The notes beneath the pieces are model-generated. The model saw only the letters and a list, made by a program, of their open reading frames with translations, made no database searches and was not told where the DNA came from. The position numbers and the translations under genes were made by a program. Below, piece by piece: positions 26,615-37,014 of a stretch of 53,371 nucleotides of DNA. Within the stretch, counting starts at the first letter, position 1. Each line of letters begins with the position of its first letter. Location of the stretch: contig JAAFIQ010000022.1 in assembly GCA_013298715.1 (NCBI GenBank), positions 1 through 53,371 of the forward strand. The letters are read 5' to 3'. The stretch comes from Bacteroidota bacterium. Its GTDB lineage: Bacteria; Bacteroidota; Bacteroidia; B-17B0; Aurantibacillaceae.

Positions 26615-27556
26615 CTACAACCTCTGCTTCTCATTACTTTTCTCCTGCTCCCATGTTGCGGCTTGCTTTTTAGAGAAGCGAATTCCCAGCATAATTTCAT
26701 GTGTACCGGTAGAATAATTTTTCAAATTAGTTGTTGTAAAATCATAAGAGTAGCCAATCATTAAATAATTTTTGTAAAAATAACCAATCAACGCTGTAAC
26801 CGCGTCTTTGTGTCTGTATGCGCCACCTAGCCATATTTGTTCTTTGTAAATTACTCTTAATCCAGCATCTATTTTTGGTGGTGCCGGCATGGCGTATTTA
26901 ACTAAAAAAGATGGCTCGATTTTAAACTCCTCATTCAAATCAAATTTATACGCACCATTCAAATTAAAATGACTTACAAGTTTACTACTTCTCGAACTGT
27001 TTTGATAGAGTGCAATAGGCGACTGATAAATTTGAGGAACAGATAATCCTAAATAAAACCTATCTTTTTTATGAAAATAAATTCCTGTTCCAAAATCGGG
27101 TACATAAGTTGTTTGATAAGTTGCCAATAAATTTTCATCGCCCTCATCTCTTAAAATTAATTTATGACCATCAATTCCCCACTGTAAAACCCCAGCACTT
27201 AATCCCATTGATAAAAATGTTTCCTCTTTGTTTAATCTTAAATGATAGGCATAACTAAAATTTAATCCTGTTCTTCGGGTTGGTCCAACTATATCGGTAT
27301 ACAAATTCATTCCTAATCCCATGTTTTTATCCTTAATTGGTCCGTGCAAAGTTAGCATGTAGGTGCGCGGCGCATCTGTAATTCCAACCCATTGGTAGCG
27401 GTTATTTGATCGTAAATCAGCATAGTTATCTTTTCCAGCCACAGCCGGATTAATTGCCATCTCGTTTAGCATATACTGTGTGTATTGAGGCAACTGTTGC
27501 GCATAGCCCATCACCGTTAGCAAGCTAAGTAATAGTATGTAAATTCTACTTTTCAT
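26615..27556 (-). CDS. PorP/SprF-family outer-membrane protein
   Basis: Encodes 313 residues. A signal peptide (MKSRIYILLLSLLTVMGYAQ) is followed by the family start QLPQYTQYMLNEMAINPAVAGKD and SNNRYQWVGITDAPRTYML-like residues, then alternating strands of an outer-membrane barrel. In Flavobacterium johnsoniae SprF is needed for secretion and surface attachment of SprB; PorP/SprF proteins hold type B cargo at the cell surface. The ATG overlaps the stop of the giant adhesin by one base (TAATG), so the two are translationally coupled, the usual arrangement of adhesin plus SprF partner. Confidence 0.92.
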   Translation of the reverse strand: MKSRIYILLLSLLTVMGYAQQLPQYTQYMLNEMAINPAVAGKDNYADLRSNNRYQWVGITDAPRTYMLTLHGPIKDKNMGLGMNLYTDIVGPTRRTGLNFSYAYHLRLNKEETFLSMGLSAGVLQWGIDGHKLILRDEGDENLLATYQTTYVPDFGTGIYFHKKDRFYLGLSVPQIYQSPIALYQNSSRSSKLVSHFNLNGAYKFDLNEEFKIEPSFLVKYAMPAPPKIDAGLRVIYKEQIWLGGAYRHKDAVTALIGYFYKNYLMIGYSYDFTTTNLKNYSTGTHEIMLGIRFSKKQAATWEQEKSNEKQRL

Positions 27557-30500
27557 TATCTAAAAATGGTTAATGGTCCAGTAAATGGCTTATCAAATAC
27601 AGGATGATTTAATTTAATTATGTAATAGTATGTTCCAACCGGTAAATCCTTACCTTGATACTTACCATTAAATGGTGTGTTATAGCCTCTAGAATAGAAT
27701 AACAATTCGCCCCAACGGTTATAAACCTCAACTTCACAATCTGGGAATTGTTGAATGTTATCAATTATCCAAGTGTCATTTTTACTATCTCCATTCGGGC
27801 TAAAGCCATTTGGTATTTTAATTTCTGGATAAATATCCACGCGCATAGTATCACTATTAATACAACCATTAACATCAGTAACAAATACGGTATAGGTTAA
27901 ATTAAGGGTATTTGAGGCTACAGGGTTTGCAATATTCCCATCATTTAAGGTAAATGGTGGCATCCAAGTATAAGTTAAAGCAGAGTTTGATGTTGGGCTT
28001 CCGCCAATTGTAACATTTGATAAAACCGGTATGGTATAGCTTGGACCCGCGTCTACATCCGGTAAAGATAGCATGTTAACTACAACCGTGTCAAAATCAG
28101 AACACACCGTATTGGTTGATAATACTTGCAGTACATAACTTGCTGTATTTATTACTTGTGGAACTGATAAAGTTGAGGTATTGCCAACAGGGGTTAAGGT
28201 ACTAGGTAATTGATACCAAACGTATTGATTTGCTCCAACAGAATTTGTACCAGTAAGAACAATTGAATTTGTAAGCGGACATACAGTGAAATTAGTACCT
28301 GCATCCGCAGTAATGGTTAACGTTGGGACAACTTCTAACGTTTGTGTAATTGAACAACTTCTGCTATCAAGCGCTAATAAAGAATAAGTACCAGCATTTA
28401 AGTTGGTTAATGTAGTGGTGGCTGAAGTAGTAAATGAATTTGGTCCAGTCCATGTATAAGTGTAAAGAGGCGAACCTCCGCTCAAAGTTATAGTCGCACT
28501 GCCATCTGCCGCGTTGCTACAAGACGAGTTTGTTATCGTATTCGTCAGTATTAATGCCGGTGGGTTAATCAAACTTACGGTTTCAGTTCTCACACAACCT
28601 CTTTGGTCAGTTACAGTTGCAACATAACTCCCCGAACAAAGTGCTGTTGCGGGATTTACGTTGCCACTAGGTGTTGGCGACCAAGTAAATGTGAACGGAA
28701 GTGTTCCACCGCTTGGAATTAAAGTAATAGCACCGTTACAATTATTATTACAACGTGGTTGCTGTACATTAGAGATGCTCAAATTGAGTGGAGGCGCTTC
28801 AGTAATTGTAAATGTTCGAATAGTTCTACAGCCATTAGCAGTCACCGTGAGTGTAATTAATCCAGGGCATAAACCTATGACGCTTTGTGTTGTTGCACCA
28901 TTACTCCAACTATAGGTTACAGGAGCAGTTGATGTGCCAAGCGCAACAATAGAACCAGTACATGCACCAAAACATCTTACATTACTTTGTGTGAATGTTA
29001 AAGCAGGGCCAGTTAAATTATTTATATTGAATACCTGTGTCTGATTACAGCCGTTAGAACCAACCGTTACAGAGTAGCTTCCTGCCCCAATATTGGATAG
29101 AGTTGCAGTACTACTTGATCCTGGATTCCATGTAAATGTATAAGGCAATGTACCTCCGGTTACAACAAGATTAATGCTACCATTATTCGCGTTACAAGCA
29201 GTAGGTGTTATTATACTTGGTGTAATAGTTAAATTAGTTGCAGGTGTTAAAGTAGTACTAGCAGTTCTAATACAGCCCTGTGCATCCGTCATCTGCACAA
29301 AATAAGTACCAGCACATAAACCTGTTAGTGAAGGGCTAGAACTACTTGGTGTTGTCCAGCTAAAAGTTATTGGTGCAGTTCCTCCAATTGGAGATACGGT
29401 TACAGCACCATTGCATAGGCTAGAGCAAAGAATAGGTTGAATACTAAATGTTTCTCCTGTTATCCCATTAGAATTGCTTATTGCAATGTTTTGAAGTTGA
29501 TTACATCCATTAAAATCGGTTATAGAAACTTGATATAAACCAGCACATAAACTACTTGCTTGAGTTCCCGTCGCACCGCTTGTCCAGCTGTACGTAAATG
29601 GAGCTGTTCCACCACTTGCAGTAATTGTTGATGAACCATTACATAATCCACAAGATGGGGATGCAACAGTTGAGGCCGCTGTAATTTGAACTGGCGAAGT
29701 AATATTGGTTGTAAAACTATTATTACATCCTAAATTATCTGTTGCTGTTAATGTATAAATACCATTACATAAATTATTAATTGTTGTAGTTGTTGCTCCA
29801 GTATTCCAATTAAAGGTGTAAGGAGGAGTACCTCCAGAAGTAGAAATTGCCGATGCGGTTCCAACACAGTTGCCAAAACACAAATTATTTGTATTATTAA
29901 TTGTTGATGTTAAACTTATGATACTAGGTAAATTAATTGTTTGAGTAGTCAAACATAAATTAATATCTCTAATTTGTACTGTGTAGTTTCCAGCGCAAGC
30001 ATTTGTGAATACAGATGAGTTAGGTGCGCTCGGAGTCCATGTATAACTATATCCTGGAGTTCCTCCGCTAGTATTTAAAGAAATAGATCCATTGCAAATG
30101 CCATTACAAGTAGGGAAACCAAAGCTCGGTAAAGCTGTAATAGAACTTGGTTGAGTTACAGTAATACCTGTAAACAACACGCAACTATTAGCATCCGTAA
30201 TTTGAGCAGTATATCCACCCGCAGTTAACCCAGTAATTGGATTTAATGTACTTGGCGCAGGAGGTGATACCCAAGCTAAGGTGTAACCAGGTGTTCCACC
30301 TGTTACGTTAGTAATAGATGCTGCGCCAGTTGCGCCTCCATTACAAACTACATTGGTAACGGAAATTACTGCGGAACTTGGTCCATTTGCATTTGCCAGA
30401 GGGATTACTAAAGTGTTTGTACAATTATTGATGTCAGAAACATTAACCGTGTAAACACCAGCAGTTAAGCCAGTTGCAAATGATGTTGTGCTAACTGCAG

Positions 30501-33500
30501 GGATCCATGTGAAAGAATATGTTGGAGTACCACCTGTAGGTAAAACCGTTATAGAACCATTTGCGGTTCCGCAACTAGATGGTAAATTACTTGAACTTAA
30601 ATTAAGTGCTGGTGGTGTAGTAATGGTATAGGTTTGAGAGTCGGTACAACCTTGTGCATCCTGTATTAATAGCGTATAATTGTTATTTGCGCACTGATTC
30701 ACAAGTGAATTTGTTCCAGTTACACCACTTGGTAACCACGTAAAGCTTACAGCACCTTGCGCATTTGCAGGAGTGCTTAACGCAATACCATTACAATTTC
30801 CATTACATAACGGACTAGTAGTTGTAACATTTGCAAGTAAAGCAGCTGGCGAAATTAGGTTGGCAGTTGCCAATGCTGTACAACCTTGCGCATCTGTAGC
30901 AGTTGCTGTATAAACACTGGCACATAAGCCTGTTGGATTAAGTCCGCTACCAGTTGGCGCCCAAGTTATTGCAAACGTTCCTTGATTCCCAGAAACTACA
31001 GTTGATATACTTCCATTACAAGCCCCATTACATAGAGGATTTACCGGAGTTAAATTTAATGAGAAATTAGGAGCGGGGTTCAAAGTAAAGCCTTGTGTAC
31101 TTGTGCACCCATTAGCATCTGTTACAGTACCAGTATAGTTTCCGGCACAAAGCCCTCCAATCGTATTAGTAGTAATACCACTCCCACTCCAACTTAATGA
31201 ATAAGTAGGAGTTCCGCCAGAAGCGTTTAACGTAGCAGTTCCATTACAATTACCAGAACAAATTGGTTGCGAAATAGAAAGTGTACTTGTTAATGCTGTT
31301 GGTTGTGTAATTTGAGAAGTTGCGGTTCTTGAGCACCCATTTTGGTCGGTAGCTGTAACCGTATAAATCGCAGGACATAAATTAATAATGGTTGGTGTGG
31401 TAGCTCCTAAAAATGGACCAACCGCTGGCCAATTGTAAGTTATTAATCCTGTACCTCCGTTTACTTGTGTATTTACTGTTCCATTACACGCTCCAAAGCA
31501 CCTTACATTAATTGGTGTTGCTGTTAGGCTAAGTGCTGATGGCTGGGTTACCGTAAAGTTTCTAACAACAACACATCCTCTTAAATCGGTAATAGTTGCT
31601 GTGTAAGTTCCGCTACATAAATTTGTAACCGTCTGTGTGCCTTGTCCTGTAATTATACCAGGTGTCCAATTTAAGGTATAGCCCGGCGTTGCGCCACTTA
31701 ATCCTAATGTTATACTTCCGTTACAAACAGCATTACACGTTAGGTTTGTTACATTTTGAGTAACGGTAAGTGAGCTTGGTTGAGCAATAACAACGTTTGT
31801 TGAAGTAATACATCCACTTCCTGCATCTGTAACGGAAATGTTATAAGTTCCTGTATTCAATGAAGATGCAGTGGAAGTATTTCCAAAACTTACAAATGGC
31901 ACAACTGGAGACCATGTGAATGTAAATCCTCCAATACCTGAAGCAGTAACAGTTGCACTACCATTATTACCGCCAAAACACGAGACTGAACTTGAAGCTA
32001 CGGTAAGCGTGGGCCCAATTGGATTTGTTAAAGAGGTTACAAAAGTTGAATTACAAGCCGCACCGTTTCCAACAACGACTGTATATCCGCCAGCACCTAA
32101 ATTAGAGTAGCAACTGCTGTTAATGCCTGTGCCTCCAGGCGGGCTCCACGTAAACGTATAACCTGAGCCTGTTCCTCCACTTGGCACTGCACAAATACTT
32201 CCATTACTTACAACACATCCGCTAGGGTTGGTGTTTGTAAGAGCAACCGTTACGGCTGGCGGTGCATTTAAAGTAAATGTATTAATGACGAAACAGCCAT
32301 TAGCATCGGTTACTCTGAGTGTATAAGTACCTGCGCAAAGGTTGGTTAGGTTGGGCGTGGTTTGCCCGCCAGGGCTCCAAGAGAAGGTTAATGGCCCTGT
32401 ACCACCACTTGCATTTGAGTTAATAGAACCATTACATACACCATTGCAATTAGGATTTGTAGATGTTGGTGCAACATTTATTGGCGCAGGATTTACGAAT
32501 GATATTGTACCCGTGTTAGAACAGCCTAATTGATCACTTACTAAAACCGTATAGCTGCCTGCACATAAGTTTGTTACAGTCTGAGTATTTTGCACAGGTA
32601 ATGTTGGCGACCATGTAAACGTATAAGGACCTGTACCACCTGAGGGGTTCGCCGTTGCAGAAGCTGTGCAAGCTCCAAAACATTGAATTCCGCCACCGCC
32701 AGTTATTACAACAACGCTAACAGTTTGCGCAATATTTAAAGTGGCAGTAGAAGTACAGGTTTGACTGTCTGTTACTGTTACGGTATAATTTCCTACACAA
32801 AGTCCGTTTACTATGGATGCCGTACCAACGGTAGCTAGGACACTGTTAGTCCAAACATAAGTATAACCAGGTGTTCCGTTTGATGCAGTAACTGTGGCGC
32901 TTCCAGTACAAGCATTACAACTATTTTGCGAACCTGTTATAGCAGCTGATAGGGCAATTGGCTGTGCTATCGTATAATTTTGTGATTGGCTGCATCCTGT
33001 CGCATCAGTTACAGTCGCTAAATAATTTCCGGCACATAAACCAGAAACAATACCGGTGGTATTTGTGGTAGGTAATGGTAACGTGTTGAATTGATAAGTG
33101 TAAGCTGGATTACCGCCAATAACGGCAACCGTTGCACTTCCGTTACAGCTTCCCGCACAAGAAGTTGAGGTTGTAGAAACGGCAACTGTGATAGCAGGAG
33201 GAGAAACCAAAGCTGTTGTAAAAGTTCTATTACAGCCTGTAGCATCTGTAACTGTAAGAGTGTAATTACCAGCACAAAGCCCGGTATTTGGCGAGCCAGT
33301 GAATCCATTCGACCAATTTAATGTATACCCTGGGTTTCCGCCTGTAGCATTTGCAGATAAGATACCATTACATGAGCCAAAACAAGTTGGTGCAACAGGA
33401 TTAATTGTGGCATTGATAACAGGAGGCTGACTTAAAGTAACAACAGAACTTGCTGTACAAGCATTGGCATCTAAAACATTAAAAGTATAGGTGCCAATAC

Positions 33501-36500
33501 ATAATCCAGTTAAAATTCCTCCAGCAACAGGACCGCTTCCAGTTTGCCAACTCAAAGTATAGCTTGGTGTACCACCTAAAACACTTCCAGATAAACCACC
33601 GTTACATGAACCAAAACAAGTTATCGATGTAGTTGAAACACTTGGCACTAAGGGATTTGGTTGGGTTATACTCACCGTTCTGGTAATACTACATAAATTT
33701 ATATCCCTAACTATCAATGTATGCAATCCAACACATAACCCTAAAAATGGCGGAGCCGTGGTAATTGTTGCTCCAGCAGGTGTGATCAAAGAAAAGGTAT
33801 ATGGGCCTTGACCACCAGTAGGCGAAGCACCAATTGTTCCGTTACATAAAGCGTTACAAGTAATCGAACCAGATGTAATATTAGGAGTTATAGAAAAAGG
33901 TTGTGCAATTGTTAGCACGGAATTGGTAACACAAAGCGATGCATCGCTAACTGAAACAGTATAAGGACCGGCGCATAAAGCAGCAGCCGTACTAGTAGTG
34001 GAAACACTTGGCGCCCAAGTAAAAGTAAATGGCGCACCATTTCCACCTGTTGGATTAACTGTTGCAGCGCCTGTACAGGCTCCAAAACATACGATAGAAT
34101 TGGTATTTATTGTTAATGTTGTTTGCGGAGGATTTGTTAGGGTTGTAGTAAAATTTCTGTTACACCCATTTGCATCAGTAACTGTAAGTGTAAAAGGCCC
34201 AGCACTTAAATTCGTTATTGGATTACCATTAAAACCGGTTGACCAAGTAAAGGTGTATGCCGGCGTTCCTCCACCTGCAACGGCAGTTATGCTTCCGTTT
34301 GCGATTCCAAAACAGCGTGGATTTGTTGGAGTTAATGTAGCATTAATTTGCGTTGGTTGAATAATTGAAACTACCGAATTGGTAATACACGCATTAGCAT
34401 CCGTAGCGGTAACTGTTAAATTTCCAGCGCAAGCATTGGTGATTATGCTTCCATTAACAGTGCTTGTTCCTGTATTCCAACTGAGCGTATAGCCTGGAGT
34501 TCCTCCAATTGCAGTTGCCGTGGCGCTTCCATTACACACATTAAAACAAGTGGCAGAGGCAGTATTTACTGTAATTGTTAACGCATTTGGCGCAGCAATA
34601 TTTATAGTTTGAGTAATAGAGCATAAATTCGCATCTCTAATGGTTAAGGTATGAATCCCAACACATAAGCCTAAAAATGGCGGTGCGCTCGTAATTGTTG
34701 CGCCTGTTGGTGTTAGGAGTGTAAATGAATAACTTCCTGCACCTCCCGTTGGTGAAGCACCAATTGTAGCGTTACAAACAGAATTACATGTTAAACTATT
34801 GCTTGTGATATTTGGCGTAATTGAAGATGGTTGCGTAATTGTAACTACTGTGTTAATTGGACATAAAGAAACATCGCTAATACTAACGTTGTACACGCCG
34901 GCACACAATGCATTGGCAGTGTTAGATGTGCTAACAGAAGGAGACCAAGTAAAGGTAAATGGTCCACCATTGCCACCAGAAGGATTAAGAGTAGCAGCAC
35001 CAGTACACGCACCAAAACAAATAATACTTTGAGAGTTTACGGTAAGAGAAAGTGCTGGAGGCTGTGTAATAGTAACAACAGTTTGGGTTAAGCACAAATT
35101 AGCATCACGGGCAAAAACGGTATATGTTCCAGGGCACTGACCGTTAATAAATGGAAGTGTAGAAATAGTTGCAGGACCAGGTGCAACCCAGGTAAACGAA
35201 ATTGCCCCAGTACCACCAGAAGCATTCACCGATGCAGCTCCAGTACATAAGCCATTACAGGTAACATTGGTAACAGTTGCCGCAATGGAAATAGAGGCAG
35301 GTTGGGTGATATTGAAATTAACCGTACTCGTACAAAGATTAAAATCTCTTACAACTACTGTTTCGGTTCCTGCACATAAACCTCCAACTGAGGCATTTGT
35401 ACCAGATACTGGGCTCCAGGTGAATGTATAAGGAGGTGTTCCGCCAGAGACGTTAACAGACGCAACACCTGCACAATTGCCAAAACAAAGATTATTGGTT
35501 TGTGATGGAACTGTAGTTATTGAAGTTGGTTGAGTAATAGTTGAATTTACTGTTACTGTACATCCATTTACATCTGTAATAGTTGCTGTAATTGGCCCTA
35601 CGCACAAAGAATTTGCTACAGCATTTGTAGAAGGGGCAACTACACTGTTTGTTCCGTTACTAAAGTTAATTGAATAATTTGGAGTTCCGCCAATAGCTGA
35701 AACGGAATAAGCACCATTACAAACACCAAAACAAGTAGCGCTTCTGGTTATTGAGGATGGTGTAATAGAAGGCGTCAGCGGAATATTTTGTGGGAAGAAA
35801 AACGAACACCCGTTGTTATCAACTAAAGAATACGTTACTGCTCCTGAACATAAATTTGTAACCGTATAGTTTGTTAAGGCAGGAATTGTAAACACAGTGC
35901 CTGAAGCAGGCGGTGTAACATTATAAGGCGATGCTCCACCTAAAAATCGCACGCGTTGCCTGGCATTACACTGCCCAAAACACGTTGCCAAGCTTGTTGA
36001 TAAAACCGTCATTGATACTGGTGATGGATCGGCAGGTAGAATTAAACCTAACGCAGAAGCTACTGAATTATTGAAGGGGTCGTCGAGAGATAAATCCAAT
36101 GCCACGTTGGCACAACCGGTTACAAGAAGAGTTATTACTGTTGATCCGGATACAGGCAAAAACGCTGGAACGCAAGTTGCAGTTGTGTTAAAAAAGAGTG
36201 TATAAGGGCCTGGAGGACAAGTGCCTGCATTAACAACTATTGTAATTGTTGCTGTACCGCCAGCACAAGGCGCACTCACGAAACTGTAATTTAGCGAACA
36301 AACCCCTGAATTTTTTGCGTTTGAAGTATTACTTTGTTTAGGAAGGAATTTAAAGTTAGCTCCGATGGTGTTCAGATTTGTTAATTCGGCAGTTTTGCTA
36401 CAACTTAAATAAGAGTTCTGAGTTACAAAAGTGGCATTTTCTTTTTTTACATAAATCCTATCGGCTGACAGAACCACCCGCTTCACCTCAAATTTACCTT

Positions 36501-37014
36501 CGTAAAAAAAGAGATCATTATTCGGATTATAAATACTTGAAAGGATGCGGTTATCGCCAATAAAGTTTATGTTTCCATTAAAGGTAGCACCTTTTGGATT
36601 GAAGAAGCTTGCCTCAGCACTGGATCCTATGATAAAAAATTCATTTACATTAACAAAAGAAATTTTTGAGTTTAAATCAACATTGCCATTGATGTTTAGT
36701 GATGTTGATGATGCTGAAGTTAAATTAACTTTAAAATCTTTTTGGTATGCATAAATCCCTCCAATTGTGTTTTTACCGCTGTTAAACGAAATGGTAATAT
36801 CCTCTTTAATAAGGGACGAATTATCATCAAATATAACATTTGAGTTTTCGTTCGGTTTAATAAAAGAAGAGGTGCCACCACTCACCAAACTCCAATGTTT
36901 TGGGTCGTTAAAATTACCCGAACCACCAATCCAATAAAGGGTTTGTGCTTTTGTTAACAATAACCAAAAAGTAAGTAGAATTAGTAATAAAGATCTTTTG
37001 GTATTTAGAACCAT
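27556..37014 (-). CDS. Giant SprB-like repeat adhesin with type IX secretion C-terminal domain
   Basis: Encodes 3152 residues. Signal peptide (SLLLILLTFWLLLTKAQ), an N-terminal region (~20-335) starting TLYWIGGSGNFNDPKHWS, then about 33 repeats of ~77 residues (~335-2897; DNA ~28340-36010), two Ig/PKD-like domains (~2898-3060), and a final gliding-motility C-terminal domain (~3063-3152; FSPNGDSKNDTW, VYNRWGELLF, LPVGTYYYII). Repeats follow a C-F-G-x-C-N-G-S...GGTPxYTFTW...LCAGxYTVTVTDANGC...TQP pattern. Most have four Cys, more than the two usual in SprB repeats. The protein should be exported by type IX secretion and surface-held through SprF, serving adhesion or gliding. Its codons are GC-richer than its neighbours because of Thr/Gly/Ala/Pro content. 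Confidence 0.93.
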   Translation of the reverse strand: MVLNTKRSLLLILLTFWLLLTKAQTLYWIGGSGNFNDPKHWSLVSGGTSSFIKPNENSNVIFDDNSSLIKEDITISFNSGKNTIGGIYAYQKDFKVNLTSASSTSLNINGNVDLNSKISFVNVNEFFIIGSSAEASFFNPKGATFNGNINFIGDNRILSSIYNPNNDLFFYEGKFEVKRVVLSADRIYVKKENATFVTQNSYLSCSKTAELTNLNTIGANFKFLPKQSNTSNAKNSGVCSLNYSFVSAPCAGGTATITIVVNAGTCPPGPYTLFFNTTATCVPAFLPVSGSTVITLLVTGCANVALDLSLDDPFNNSVASALGLILPADPSPVSMTVLSTSLATCFGQCNARQRVRFLGGASPYNVTPPASGTVFTIPALTNYTVTNLCSGAVTYSLVDNNGCSFFFPQNIPLTPSITPSSITRSATCFGVCNGAYSVSAIGGTPNYSINFSNGTNSVVAPSTNAVANSLCVGPITATITDVNGCTVTVNSTITQPTSITTVPSQTNNLCFGNCAGVASVNVSGGTPPYTFTWSPVSGTNASVGGLCAGTETVVVRDFNLCTSTVNFNITQPASISIAATVTNVTCNGLCTGAASVNASGGTGAISFTWVAPGPATISTLPFINGQCPGTYTVFARDANLCLTQTVVTITQPPALSLTVNSQSIICFGACTGAATLNPSGGNGGPFTFTWSPSVSTSNTANALCAGVYNVSISDVSLCPINTVVTITQPSSITPNITSNSLTCNSVCNATIGASPTGGAGSYSFTLLTPTGATITSAPPFLGLCVGIHTLTIRDANLCSITQTINIAAPNALTITVNTASATCFNVCNGSATATAIGGTPGYTLSWNTGTSTVNGSIITNACAGNLTVTATDANACITNSVVSIIQPTQINATLTPTNPRCFGIANGSITAVAGGGTPAYTFTWSTGFNGNPITNLSAGPFTLTVTDANGCNRNFTTTLTNPPQTTLTINTNSIVCFGACTGAATVNPTGGNGAPFTFTWAPSVSTTSTAAALCAGPYTVSVSDASLCVTNSVLTIAQPFSITPNITSGSITCNALCNGTIGASPTGGQGPYTFSLITPAGATITTAPPFLGLCVGLHTLIVRDINLCSITRTVSITQPNPLVPSVSTTSITCFGSCNGGLSGSVLGGTPSYTLSWQTGSGPVAGGILTGLCIGTYTFNVLDANACTASSVVTLSQPPVINATINPVAPTCFGSCNGILSANATGGNPGYTLNWSNGFTGSPNTGLCAGNYTLTVTDATGCNRTFTTALVSPPAITVAVSTTSTSCAGSCNGSATVAVIGGNPAYTYQFNTLPLPTTNTTGIVSGLCAGNYLATVTDATGCSQSQNYTIAQPIALSAAITGSQNSCNACTGSATVTASNGTPGYTYVWTNSVLATVGTASIVNGLCVGNYTVTVTDSQTCTSTATLNIAQTVSVVVITGGGGIQCFGACTASATANPSGGTGPYTFTWSPTLPVQNTQTVTNLCAGSYTVLVSDQLGCSNTGTISFVNPAPINVAPTSTNPNCNGVCNGSINSNASGGTGPLTFSWSPGGQTTPNLTNLCAGTYTLRVTDANGCFVINTFTLNAPPAVTVALTNTNPSGCVVSNGSICAVPSGGTGSGYTFTWSPPGGTGINSSCYSNLGAGGYTVVVGNGAACNSTFVTSLTNPIGPTLTVASSSVSCFGGNNGSATVTASGIGGFTFTWSPVVPFVSFGNTSTASSLNTGTYNISVTDAGSGCITSTNVVIAQPSSLTVTQNVTNLTCNAVCNGSITLGLSGATPGYTLNWTPGIITGQGTQTVTNLCSGTYTATITDLRGCVVVRNFTVTQPSALSLTATPINVRCFGACNGTVNTQVNGGTGLITYNWPAVGPFLGATTPTIINLCPAIYTVTATDQNGCSRTATSQITQPTALTSTLSISQPICSGNCNGTATLNASGGTPTYSLSWSGSGITTNTIGGLCAGNYTGTVTDANGCTSTQGFTLNPAPNFSLNLTPVNPLCNGACNGSISTVVSGNQGTFAITWAPTGSGLNPTGLCASVYTATATDAQGCTALATANLISPAALLANVTTTSPLCNGNCNGIALSTPANAQGAVSFTWLPSGVTGTNSLVNQCANNNYTLLIQDAQGCTDSQTYTITTPPALNLSSSNLPSSCGTANGSITVLPTGGTPTYSFTWIPAVSTTSFATGLTAGVYTVNVSDINNCTNTLVIPLANANGPSSAVISVTNVVCNGGATGAASITNVTGGTPGYTLAWVSPPAPSTLNPITGLTAGGYTAQITDANSCVLFTGITVTQPSSITALPSFGFPTCNGICNGSISLNTSGGTPGYSYTWTPSAPNSSVFTNACAGNYTVQIRDINLCLTTQTINLPSIISLTSTINNTNNLCFGNCVGTASAISTSGGTPPYTFNWNTGATTTTINNLCNGIYTLTATDNLGCNNSFTTNITSPVQITAASTVASPSCGLCNGSSTITASGGTAPFTYSWTSGATGTQASSLCAGLYQVSITDFNGCNQLQNIAISNSNGITGETFSIQPILCSSLCNGAVTVSPIGGTAPITFSWTTPSSSSPSLTGLCAGTYFVQMTDAQGCIRTASTTLTPATNLTITPSIITPTACNANNGSINLVVTGGTLPYTFTWNPGSSSTATLSNIGAGSYSVTVGSNGCNQTQVFNINNLTGPALTFTQSNVRCFGACTGSIVALGTSTAPVTYSWSNGATTQSVIGLCPGLITLTVTANGCRTIRTFTITEAPPLNLSISNVQQPRCNNNCNGAITLIPSGGTLPFTFTWSPTPSGNVNPATALCSGSYVATVTDQRGCVRTETVSLINPPALILTNTITNSSCSNAADGSATITLSGGSPLYTYTWTGPNSFTTSATTTLTNLNAGTYSLLALDSRSCSITQTLEVVPTLTITADAGTNFTVCPLTNSIVLTGTNSVGANQYVWYQLPSTLTPVGNTSTLSVPQVINTASYVLQVLSTNTVCSDFDTVVVNMLSLPDVDAGPSYTIPVLSNVTIGGSPTSNSALTYTWMPPFTLNDGNIANPVASNTLNLTYTVFVTDVNGCINSDTMRVDIYPEIKIPNGFSPNGDSKNDTWIIDNIQQFPDCEVEVYNRWGELLFYSRGYNTPFNGKYQGKDLPVGTYYYIIKLNHPVFDKPFTGPLTIFR
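28340..36010 (-). repeat. About 33 tandem ~77-residue SprB-like repeats
   Basis: I counted 33 repeat units by their first Cys and GGT-x-xYTFTW core. In 26 units the pattern is Cys-x2/3-Cys near the start, Cys in LCAG and Cys in DANGC. In 7 units (8, 17, 18, 24, 25, 30, 33 from the N-terminus) the second Cys and the LCAG Cys are both absent. Units 5-8 and 9-12 are near copies of each other, offset by 930 bases. Confidence 0.9.
33195..35055 (-). repeat. Tandem duplication of a four-repeat block (~930 bp each)
   Basis: Matching landmarks sit 930 bases apart, for example tccaaaacat at 34081 with accaaaacaa at 35011, and gttacataaa at 33841 with gttacaaaca at 34771. The peptides ACTGAATVNPTGGNG and ACTGAATLNPSGGNG, and ATITTAPPFLGLCVG and ATITSAPPFLGLCVG, show the same relation. 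It is a relatively recent duplication inside the older repeat array. Confidence 0.85.

Follow-up and report, generated by a model that had tools for sequence, protein, structure and literature searches.

Disulfides predicted across repeat junctions in an SprB-type adhesin of Bacteroidota

SprB-type adhesins carry the force of gliding in Bacteroidota, and to our knowledge it is not settled how this force travels along a thin filament of over 30 immunoglobulin (Ig)-like domains. The question is raised by contig JAAFIQ010000022.1 of a Bacteroidota bacterium (GenBank assembly GCA_013298715.1), whose 53,371 nucleotides form the window analysed here and encode a protein of 3152 amino acids (aa) with 33 cysteine-rich SprB repeats. 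We named the four cysteines that a repeat can hold C1 to C4 in order and asked how they pair. With high confidence, we propose that the adhesin is exported by the type IX secretion system (T9SS) and that its Ig-like repeats are joined by disulfides, from C1 of repeat n to C4 of repeat n+1 across each junction and from C2 to C3 within the repeat, which would make it a stapled rod. The two features on which the analysis is built are:

27556..37014, minus strand: T9SS type B repeat adhesin, 3152 aa (translated open reading frame, ORF)
28318..36018, minus strand: 33 SprB repeats as structural units, strand A to strand G (unit table and AlphaFold2 (AF2) model)

PF13573 matches the protein in 23 stretches with 516.4 bits (cut-off 28) and identifies the repeats as SprB repeats. 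The preliminary description of this DNA had placed 33 of them at 28340-36010, close to the span found here; in C1-based coordinates the array covers 28282-35982 on the minus strand. All four cysteines are present in 26 of the 33 units, with C2 at 3 or 4 residues after C1 in the unit table. C2 and C3 are both missing from the other seven, and not a single unit has only one of them:

34090..34314, minus strand: unit 8, two-cysteine form (unit table)
31981..32217, minus strand: unit 17, no C2 or C3, alternative pair at aa 1608 and 1635 (columns 22 and 47, strands B and E)
31738..31980, minus strand: unit 18, two-cysteine form (unit table)
30109..30573, minus strand: units 24 and 25, two-cysteine form (unit table, orthologues)
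28975..29196, minus strand: unit 30, two-cysteine form (unit table)
28282..28521, minus strand: unit 33, two-cysteine form (unit table)

This is exactly the all-or-none pattern, down to the unit numbers, that had been read from the letters beforehand. The earlier list of seven units without C2 and C3 stands, and it had overlooked the two other cysteines of unit 17, which occupy a second coupled pair of positions. The expectation of over 110 cysteines in the fibre also holds, as we counted 120 in the 33 units (26x4 + 7x2 + 2) and 130 in the whole protein. The Fisher p-value of 2.3e-7 for a 26/7 split without singles assumes independent units and is inflated, because the units arose by duplication (units 5 and 9 are 70% identical, units 6 and 10 73%). 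Units 5-8 and 9-12 (33160-35019) appear to be a duplicated four-unit block with identities of 70, 73, 49 and 61%, compared with a mean of 35% over all unit pairs of the array; within this block, unit 8 lacks C2 and C3 and its partner unit 12 has both.

The idea that C1 of repeat n is bonded to C4 of repeat n+1 was formed before its covariation was tested. Adjacent repeats were admitted at a C4-C1 distance of 18-34, which gave 1821 pairs from 118 loci in the first set and, by the same rule, 370 pairs from 40 regions in a test set. The test regions were taken from the top matches listed, one per genus, and represent 40 genera of one family. Units with full coverage numbered 2015 of 2179 in the main set and 479 of 576 in the test set. 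Presence and loss of C1 and C4 are given below for the offset pair (C1 of repeat n, C4 of repeat n+1) and for the two cysteines of the same repeat:

First set, offset: both present 1780, only C4 lost 4, only C1 lost 10, both lost 27
First set, same repeat: both present 1752, only C4 lost 32, only C1 lost 35, both lost 2
Test set, offset: both present 294, only C4 lost 17, only C1 lost 35, both lost 24
Test set, same repeat: both present 265, only C4 lost 46, only C1 lost 56, both lost 3
All 2191 pairs, wider windows, offset: both present 2120, only C4 lost 3, only C1 lost 27, both lost 41 (phi 0.744)
All 2191 pairs, wider windows, same repeat: both present 2070, only C4 lost 53, only C1 lost 67, both lost 1 (phi -0.011)
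All 2191 pairs, linker cysteine counted as substitute, offset: both present 2145, only C4 lost 4, only C1 lost 2, both lost 40 (phi 0.929)

The rule with wider windows was made post hoc, after the exceptions had been read; in these, C4 was displaced by insertions, C1 was displaced by about three residues, or a linker cysteine lay at the junction. Clustering at 38% identity (225 clusters) left 18 both-lost cases for the offset pair and one for the same repeat, and permutation within proteins gave a mean of 14.8 and a maximum of 24 both-lost pairs in 5000 shuffles, compared with the 41 observed. A mean-field coupling analysis of the 2191 adjacent repeat pairs (11628 column pairs) placed C1(n)-C4(n+1) at rank 5 of 11628 with 10.4 standard deviations (sd), and the same-repeat pair at ranks 8133 and 7791 with -0.5 sd. 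With the window's family excluded, the offset pair reached 11.3 sd and rank 4, and the same-repeat pair fell at ranks 10691 and 10843. The junction length was 25-26 in 1730 of 1961 stapled and in 14 of 35 unstapled junctions, a weakly supportive difference in which relatedness is uncontrolled. As a separate observation, in one apparent orthologous protein of the test-set family, one unit lacks C1, and at the same junction the linker holds a cysteine (NPGTC or similar), as if it were a substitute (L192, L195, L197, L199, L200, L205, L206, L208, L209, L211, L213).

If C1 of each repeat is bonded to C4 of the next, the last domain of an array should have C4 without C1. Indeed, C4 was present and the C1 place held no cysteine in the last domain of all 43 proteins scored, comprising 35 of 35 from the window's family and 8 of 8 others. 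The 35, which are related and not independent, are those of 40 family proteins with the exact C-terminal domain (CTD) motif. Four of the five without the exact motif fit on reading; in the fifth, L096, the C1 place of the last domain is likewise free of cysteine, but an additional one lies about 45 residues ahead of C4. The eight others are non-family proteins with at least 3 units and a CTD motif, and their last domain is mostly of a PKD-like W-x-FGDG type, as judged by eye. Further cysteines occur in the last domain of at least L129 and L052 (non-family) and L057 (family). In the window, the array is flanked by the following domains:

36019..36300, minus strand: domain 0, upstream of the array (putative; sequence and cysteine accounting)
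27823..28317, minus strand: domains 34 and 35, after the array (low-confidence AF2 model, predicted local distance difference test (pLDDT) 65.9)
27565..27822, minus strand: T9SS type B sorting domain (CHU_C / TIGR04131; profile matches)

Domain 34 holds a C1-like C2912 and a C4-like C2971, and domain 35 a C4-like C3051 and no C1; the AF2 model of these C-terminal domains, made from an alignment of six rows, is poor. At the other end, C250 of domain 0 is proposed as the partner of C403, the C4 of unit 1, the least certain of 35 inter-repeat bonds. Together with 27 intra-repeat bonds, the proposed pairing uses 124 of the 130 cysteines and leaves over residues 205, 239, 266, 281, 301 and 3093. 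C3093 (27736-27738) lies in the type B sorting domain, is common to 6 of 6 aligned relatives and is absent in L062 and L092.

A fold model of units 16-18, predicted by AF2 on an alignment of the protein's own units (mean pLDDT 92.6), has six strands in units 16 and 17 and seven in unit 18, in the order A to G of an Ig-like fold. In unit 16, the strands comprise residues 2-9 (A), 19-27 (B), 33-37 (C), 45-49 (E), 52-59 (F) and 65-72 (G), which puts C1 (13) and C2 (17) in the A-B loop, C3 (50) in the E-F turn and C4 (64) in the F-G loop. As strand F separates C3 from C4, C1 and C4 are predicted at opposite ends of the domain. The coupling analysis also yielded strand registers, with antiparallel B-E at column sums of 69, B-C at 59, C-F at 92 and F-G at 126-128. 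C2-C3 (columns 17 and 52), the alternative pair (22 and 47) and 21-48, a pair holding neither C2 nor C3, all sum to 69 and would fit rungs of one antiparallel B-E ladder. Two caveats apply: replacing cysteines by gaps blinded the coupling analysis incompletely, because their positions can still be recognised from the gaps, and the cysteine pairs themselves contribute to the B-E register score. Strands A and G couple in parallel at an offset of 64-66 (score 5.3, 12 pairs). C4 should therefore lie near the height at which A begins, and C1 near that at which G ends, so that C1 and C4 would be about 11 residues apart within a domain and about three across a junction.

The inner pair was followed through the 39 relatives compared, whose frames measure 2531-3566 aa, some cut by the edge of their stretch; a search for related loci with the C-terminal domain yielded five named loci. 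With a wider window for C3, 950 units of the window's family carry both cysteines, 261 neither, 17 only C3 and none only C2; 16 of the 17 hold the alternative pair as in unit 17, and the remaining one, which opens its array (L086), bears different extra cysteines. A narrower window scored 21 of the 1228 family units as C2-only, of which 19 proved on reading to be insertions between C3 and C4 and two (L073, L085) divergent domains. Over the 2015 units the narrower rule gave 33 C2-only and 4 C3-only cases, and in the test set 21 C2-only cases among 479; as C1 is absent in all of these 21, their cysteine is most plausibly a displaced C1. Three repeats of the source genome were scored C2-only because a further cysteine sits three residues past the usual C3 place. 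Nine phylum units were scored C3-only; several of the single cases from the source genome and the phylum have further extra cysteines, and a few look like true singles.

Several orthologous units, assigned approximately by reciprocal best hits, occur in both states with both cysteines switching together (e.g. 3, 4, 13, 15, 24, 25, 26 and 31), and the orthologues of unit 25 have the four-cysteine form in 29 of 33 matched units. C2 and C3 co-occur with a phi of 0.99 and couple at 38.8-39.3 sd, ranks 1-2. These values, together with the shared B/E register and the absence of single-cysteine repeats among the 33, support the pairing of C2 with C3 inside one repeat that had been suggested at the outset, and the best interpretation of C2-C3 is a disulfide within the repeat that connects strand B with strand E. 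One conserved unit has the alternative pair (columns 22 and 47) in place of C2-C3 (e.g. L058, L062, L063, L074, L186). Cysteines at columns 57 and 71, on strands F and G, are also coupled and could mark a third site for a disulfide. In other proteins of the source genome (L046, L049, L050), individual repeats have a cysteine in a GCYT or ACYT motif and another after C4.

Several points weigh against inter-repeat pairing of C1 and C4. Under the strict rule, 52 of 370 offset pairs of the test set are discordant; allowing for a shifted C4, a shifted C1 or a linker cysteine leaves 3 of 370, but this rule is post hoc, and many of the discordant pairs come from one orthologous protein. Four proteins supply 20 of the 24 both-lost test pairs. 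C1-less units occur in 28 proteins; a both-lost offset pair is present in 13 of them and absent from 15, and one has a unit that lost both C1 and C4. A weak association was also seen under the strict rule for C4(n)/C1(n+1) (phi 0.150) and for C1/C4 of unit n+1 (phi 0.086), which fell to 0.033 and 0.043 with wider windows, and the offset pair reached a phi of only 0.43 in a plain column scan. Units of the window's family almost always keep C1 and C4 (both in 1226 of 1228 units), and the offset pair ranks 5925 in that family; covariation is invisible there because the two cysteines hardly vary. The family test is thus without power, and the case for the window protein, which we infer to share the pairing of its relatives, rests on these relatives and on the array ends. 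An antiparallel A-G register (sum 85, 5 column pairs) scores higher than the parallel one (6.4 vs 5.3), which we take to reflect the single pair 11-74. The bonds themselves are predicted, as covariation and strand registers suggest the disulfide nature of the covarying pairs. Finally, no VKOR or Thioredoxin_4 match was found in the genome; its only DSBA match is a DsbA-like protein with a CSSC motif (L231, 1300-2301), judged by eye to be a lipoprotein.

How else could the four cysteines be arranged? The preliminary description had closed both C1-C4 and C2-C3 inside each repeat. Four cysteines a unit do suggest two bonds, and C1 and C4 occur together in every repeat of the window. The C2-C3 half of this model agrees with our data, but the C1-C4 half does not: within a repeat the two are lost independently (one both-lost against 120 discordant cases of 2191; phi -0.011 vs 0.744 for the offset pair), their coupling is at background, they lie at opposite ends of the domain, and C4 of the last domain would be orphaned in 43 of 43 proteins scored. 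Moreover, the two bonds would hardly both close in one domain, because strand F intervenes between C3 and C4 and C1 and C2 are four residues apart. We therefore consider two disulfides per repeat improbable. A different arrangement, in which C1, C2 and C3 of one repeat and C4 of the next bind a metal ion at each junction and form no disulfides, would suit the predicted convergence of the four cysteines at one place. The two pairs, however, vary independently, 924 of 2015 units keeping C1 and C4 without C2 and C3; the alternative pair 22-47 lies on neighbouring strands, and the protein is predicted to be exported. Such a site seems extremely unlikely.

Covariation alone cannot tell contacts within a chain from those between chains, and C1(n) could in principle bond with C4(n+1) of a neighbouring molecule in a bundle of staggered register. 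The A-G register, however, would put both cysteines about three residues apart on the same chain, and the single-chain reading is simpler, which makes bonds between molecules highly improbable in our view. Very little probability likewise falls to the idea that the co-occurrence of C2 and C3 merely reflects the copying of two ancestral unit types. Units did arise by duplication, with 5/9 and 6/10 at 70% and 73% identity against the mean of 35%, but many orthologous units exist in both states with both cysteines switching, and the different pair 22-47 is equally all-or-none.

Taken together, the joint loss of offset cysteines, the coupling rank of the offset pair, the location of C1 and C4 at opposite ends and the last domains without C1 argue for an outer disulfide that most likely staples each repeat to the next, across the sampled Bacteroidota at large. 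In the proposed architecture, C1 and C2 in the A-B loop and C3 in the E-F turn would lie at the C-terminal end of the domain and C4 in the F-G loop at the opposite end. C2-C3 would close within the repeat and tie strand B to strand E beside the junction, and C1 of repeat n would bond C4 of repeat n+1, so that the bonds interleave along the chain as C1(1)-C4(2), C1(2)-C4(3) and so on. With its 35 predicted inter-repeat staples and 27 intra-repeat bonds, the window protein would form a rod held by covalent staples and resistant to bending, with the SprF-like protein encoded downstream as its anchor. The stiffness of the rod and its role in adhesion or gliding are inferred from this architecture; the inter-repeat bonds make the stiff fibre that had been suggested earlier more plausible, by a different route.

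The remainder of the locus is in agreement with T9SS export. The protein has a signal-peptide-like stretch at its N-terminus, as judged by eye, and its sorting domain scores 61.7 bits with TIGR04131 and 83.5 bits with PF13585, which marks it as a type B substrate. The gene directly downstream is:

26615..27556, minus strand: PorP/SprF family T9SS membrane protein (TIGR03519 284.7 bits, PF11751)

This PorP/SprF family protein is likely the carrier and anchor of the adhesin. A translocon component is encoded elsewhere in the genome, with an SprA match of 2347 bits (TIGR04189), and SprB repeats were matched in 61 of 61 genomes searched of the window's family, the source genome included. The accessible text of a study of Flavobacterium johnsoniae describes disulfides between SprF and GldK (PMC12635249), so the T9SS machinery works with disulfides; the repeats are not treated in that text.

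The window protein resembles SprB of F. johnsoniae in its PF13573 repeats, its T9SS type B export and its PorP/SprF neighbour. It differs in having half the length of SprB, given as 6497 aa in PMC9870892, and in the extra C2-C3 pair carried by most of its repeats. A 7027-aa SprB-like ORF of another genome (L127) has the same C1/C4 spacing as the window protein. The four-cysteine form was found in 929 of 1228 units of the window's family under a strict rule (950 under the wider one), in 12-13 of 697 phylum units, in 3 of 57 units of other proteins of the source genome, and in none of the 479 full test units; one partial test unit (L230) has it. It was thus recovered when sought in other Bacteroidota, but is rare outside the family. 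The earlier statement that SprB repeats elsewhere carry only the outer pair mostly holds, as C2 and C3 together were found in 0 of 479 test and 12-13 of 697 phylum units. Of the suggested disulfide-reinforced version, the four-cysteine form is real, and it is not unique to this protein. On the sequences sampled, the inner pair is a lineage-enriched addition.

Among solved structures, the repeats are best matched by GhpA of the Aureispira grappling hook (PDB 9flw, 9flp, 9g8b), with a Foldseek E-value of 1.8e-8 and a VIA-align Z of 10.7 (root-mean-square deviation 8.6 over 223 residues, about 20% identity); the repeat profile gave a weak sequence match to it. Eukaryotic Ig chains such as titin, NCAM and Dscam are likewise built of Ig-like domains in tandem and match with a Z of about 9-10. 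Classically, their disulfide connects strands B and F of one domain, whereas the conserved bond of the SprB repeats is proposed to join domains. A phmmer search of the whole protein against PDB sequences gave no match at 0.01, and profile and single-stretch searches gave weak matches only, for instance to phage decoration proteins. Repeat, fold and export route all belong to known kinds. In the literature within reach, to which most subscription papers did not belong, we found inter-repeat disulfides reported for neither SprB nor PKD arrays, and no study of disulfides in SprB repeats. The inter-repeat bond may already be visible in predicted models of public databases.

Extended to the phylum, we consider it fairly probable that T9SS-exported SprB and PKD arrays are interleaved disulfide ladders. 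The adhesins of gliding and predation would then be single rods with covalent reinforcement, their stiffness possibly governed by oxidation while or after they are exported, and the four-cysteine form would add a second clamp per junction. Bonds between the repeats would overturn the obvious expectation that the conserved cysteines of a repeat pair with each other. Gliding and adhesion would be predicted to be sensitive to reducing agents and to single mutations of C1 or C4. The staples would also raise a question of export, as the stapled rod is much longer than the periplasm is wide. Staples between the repeats would explain how such a chain can be a stiff filament.

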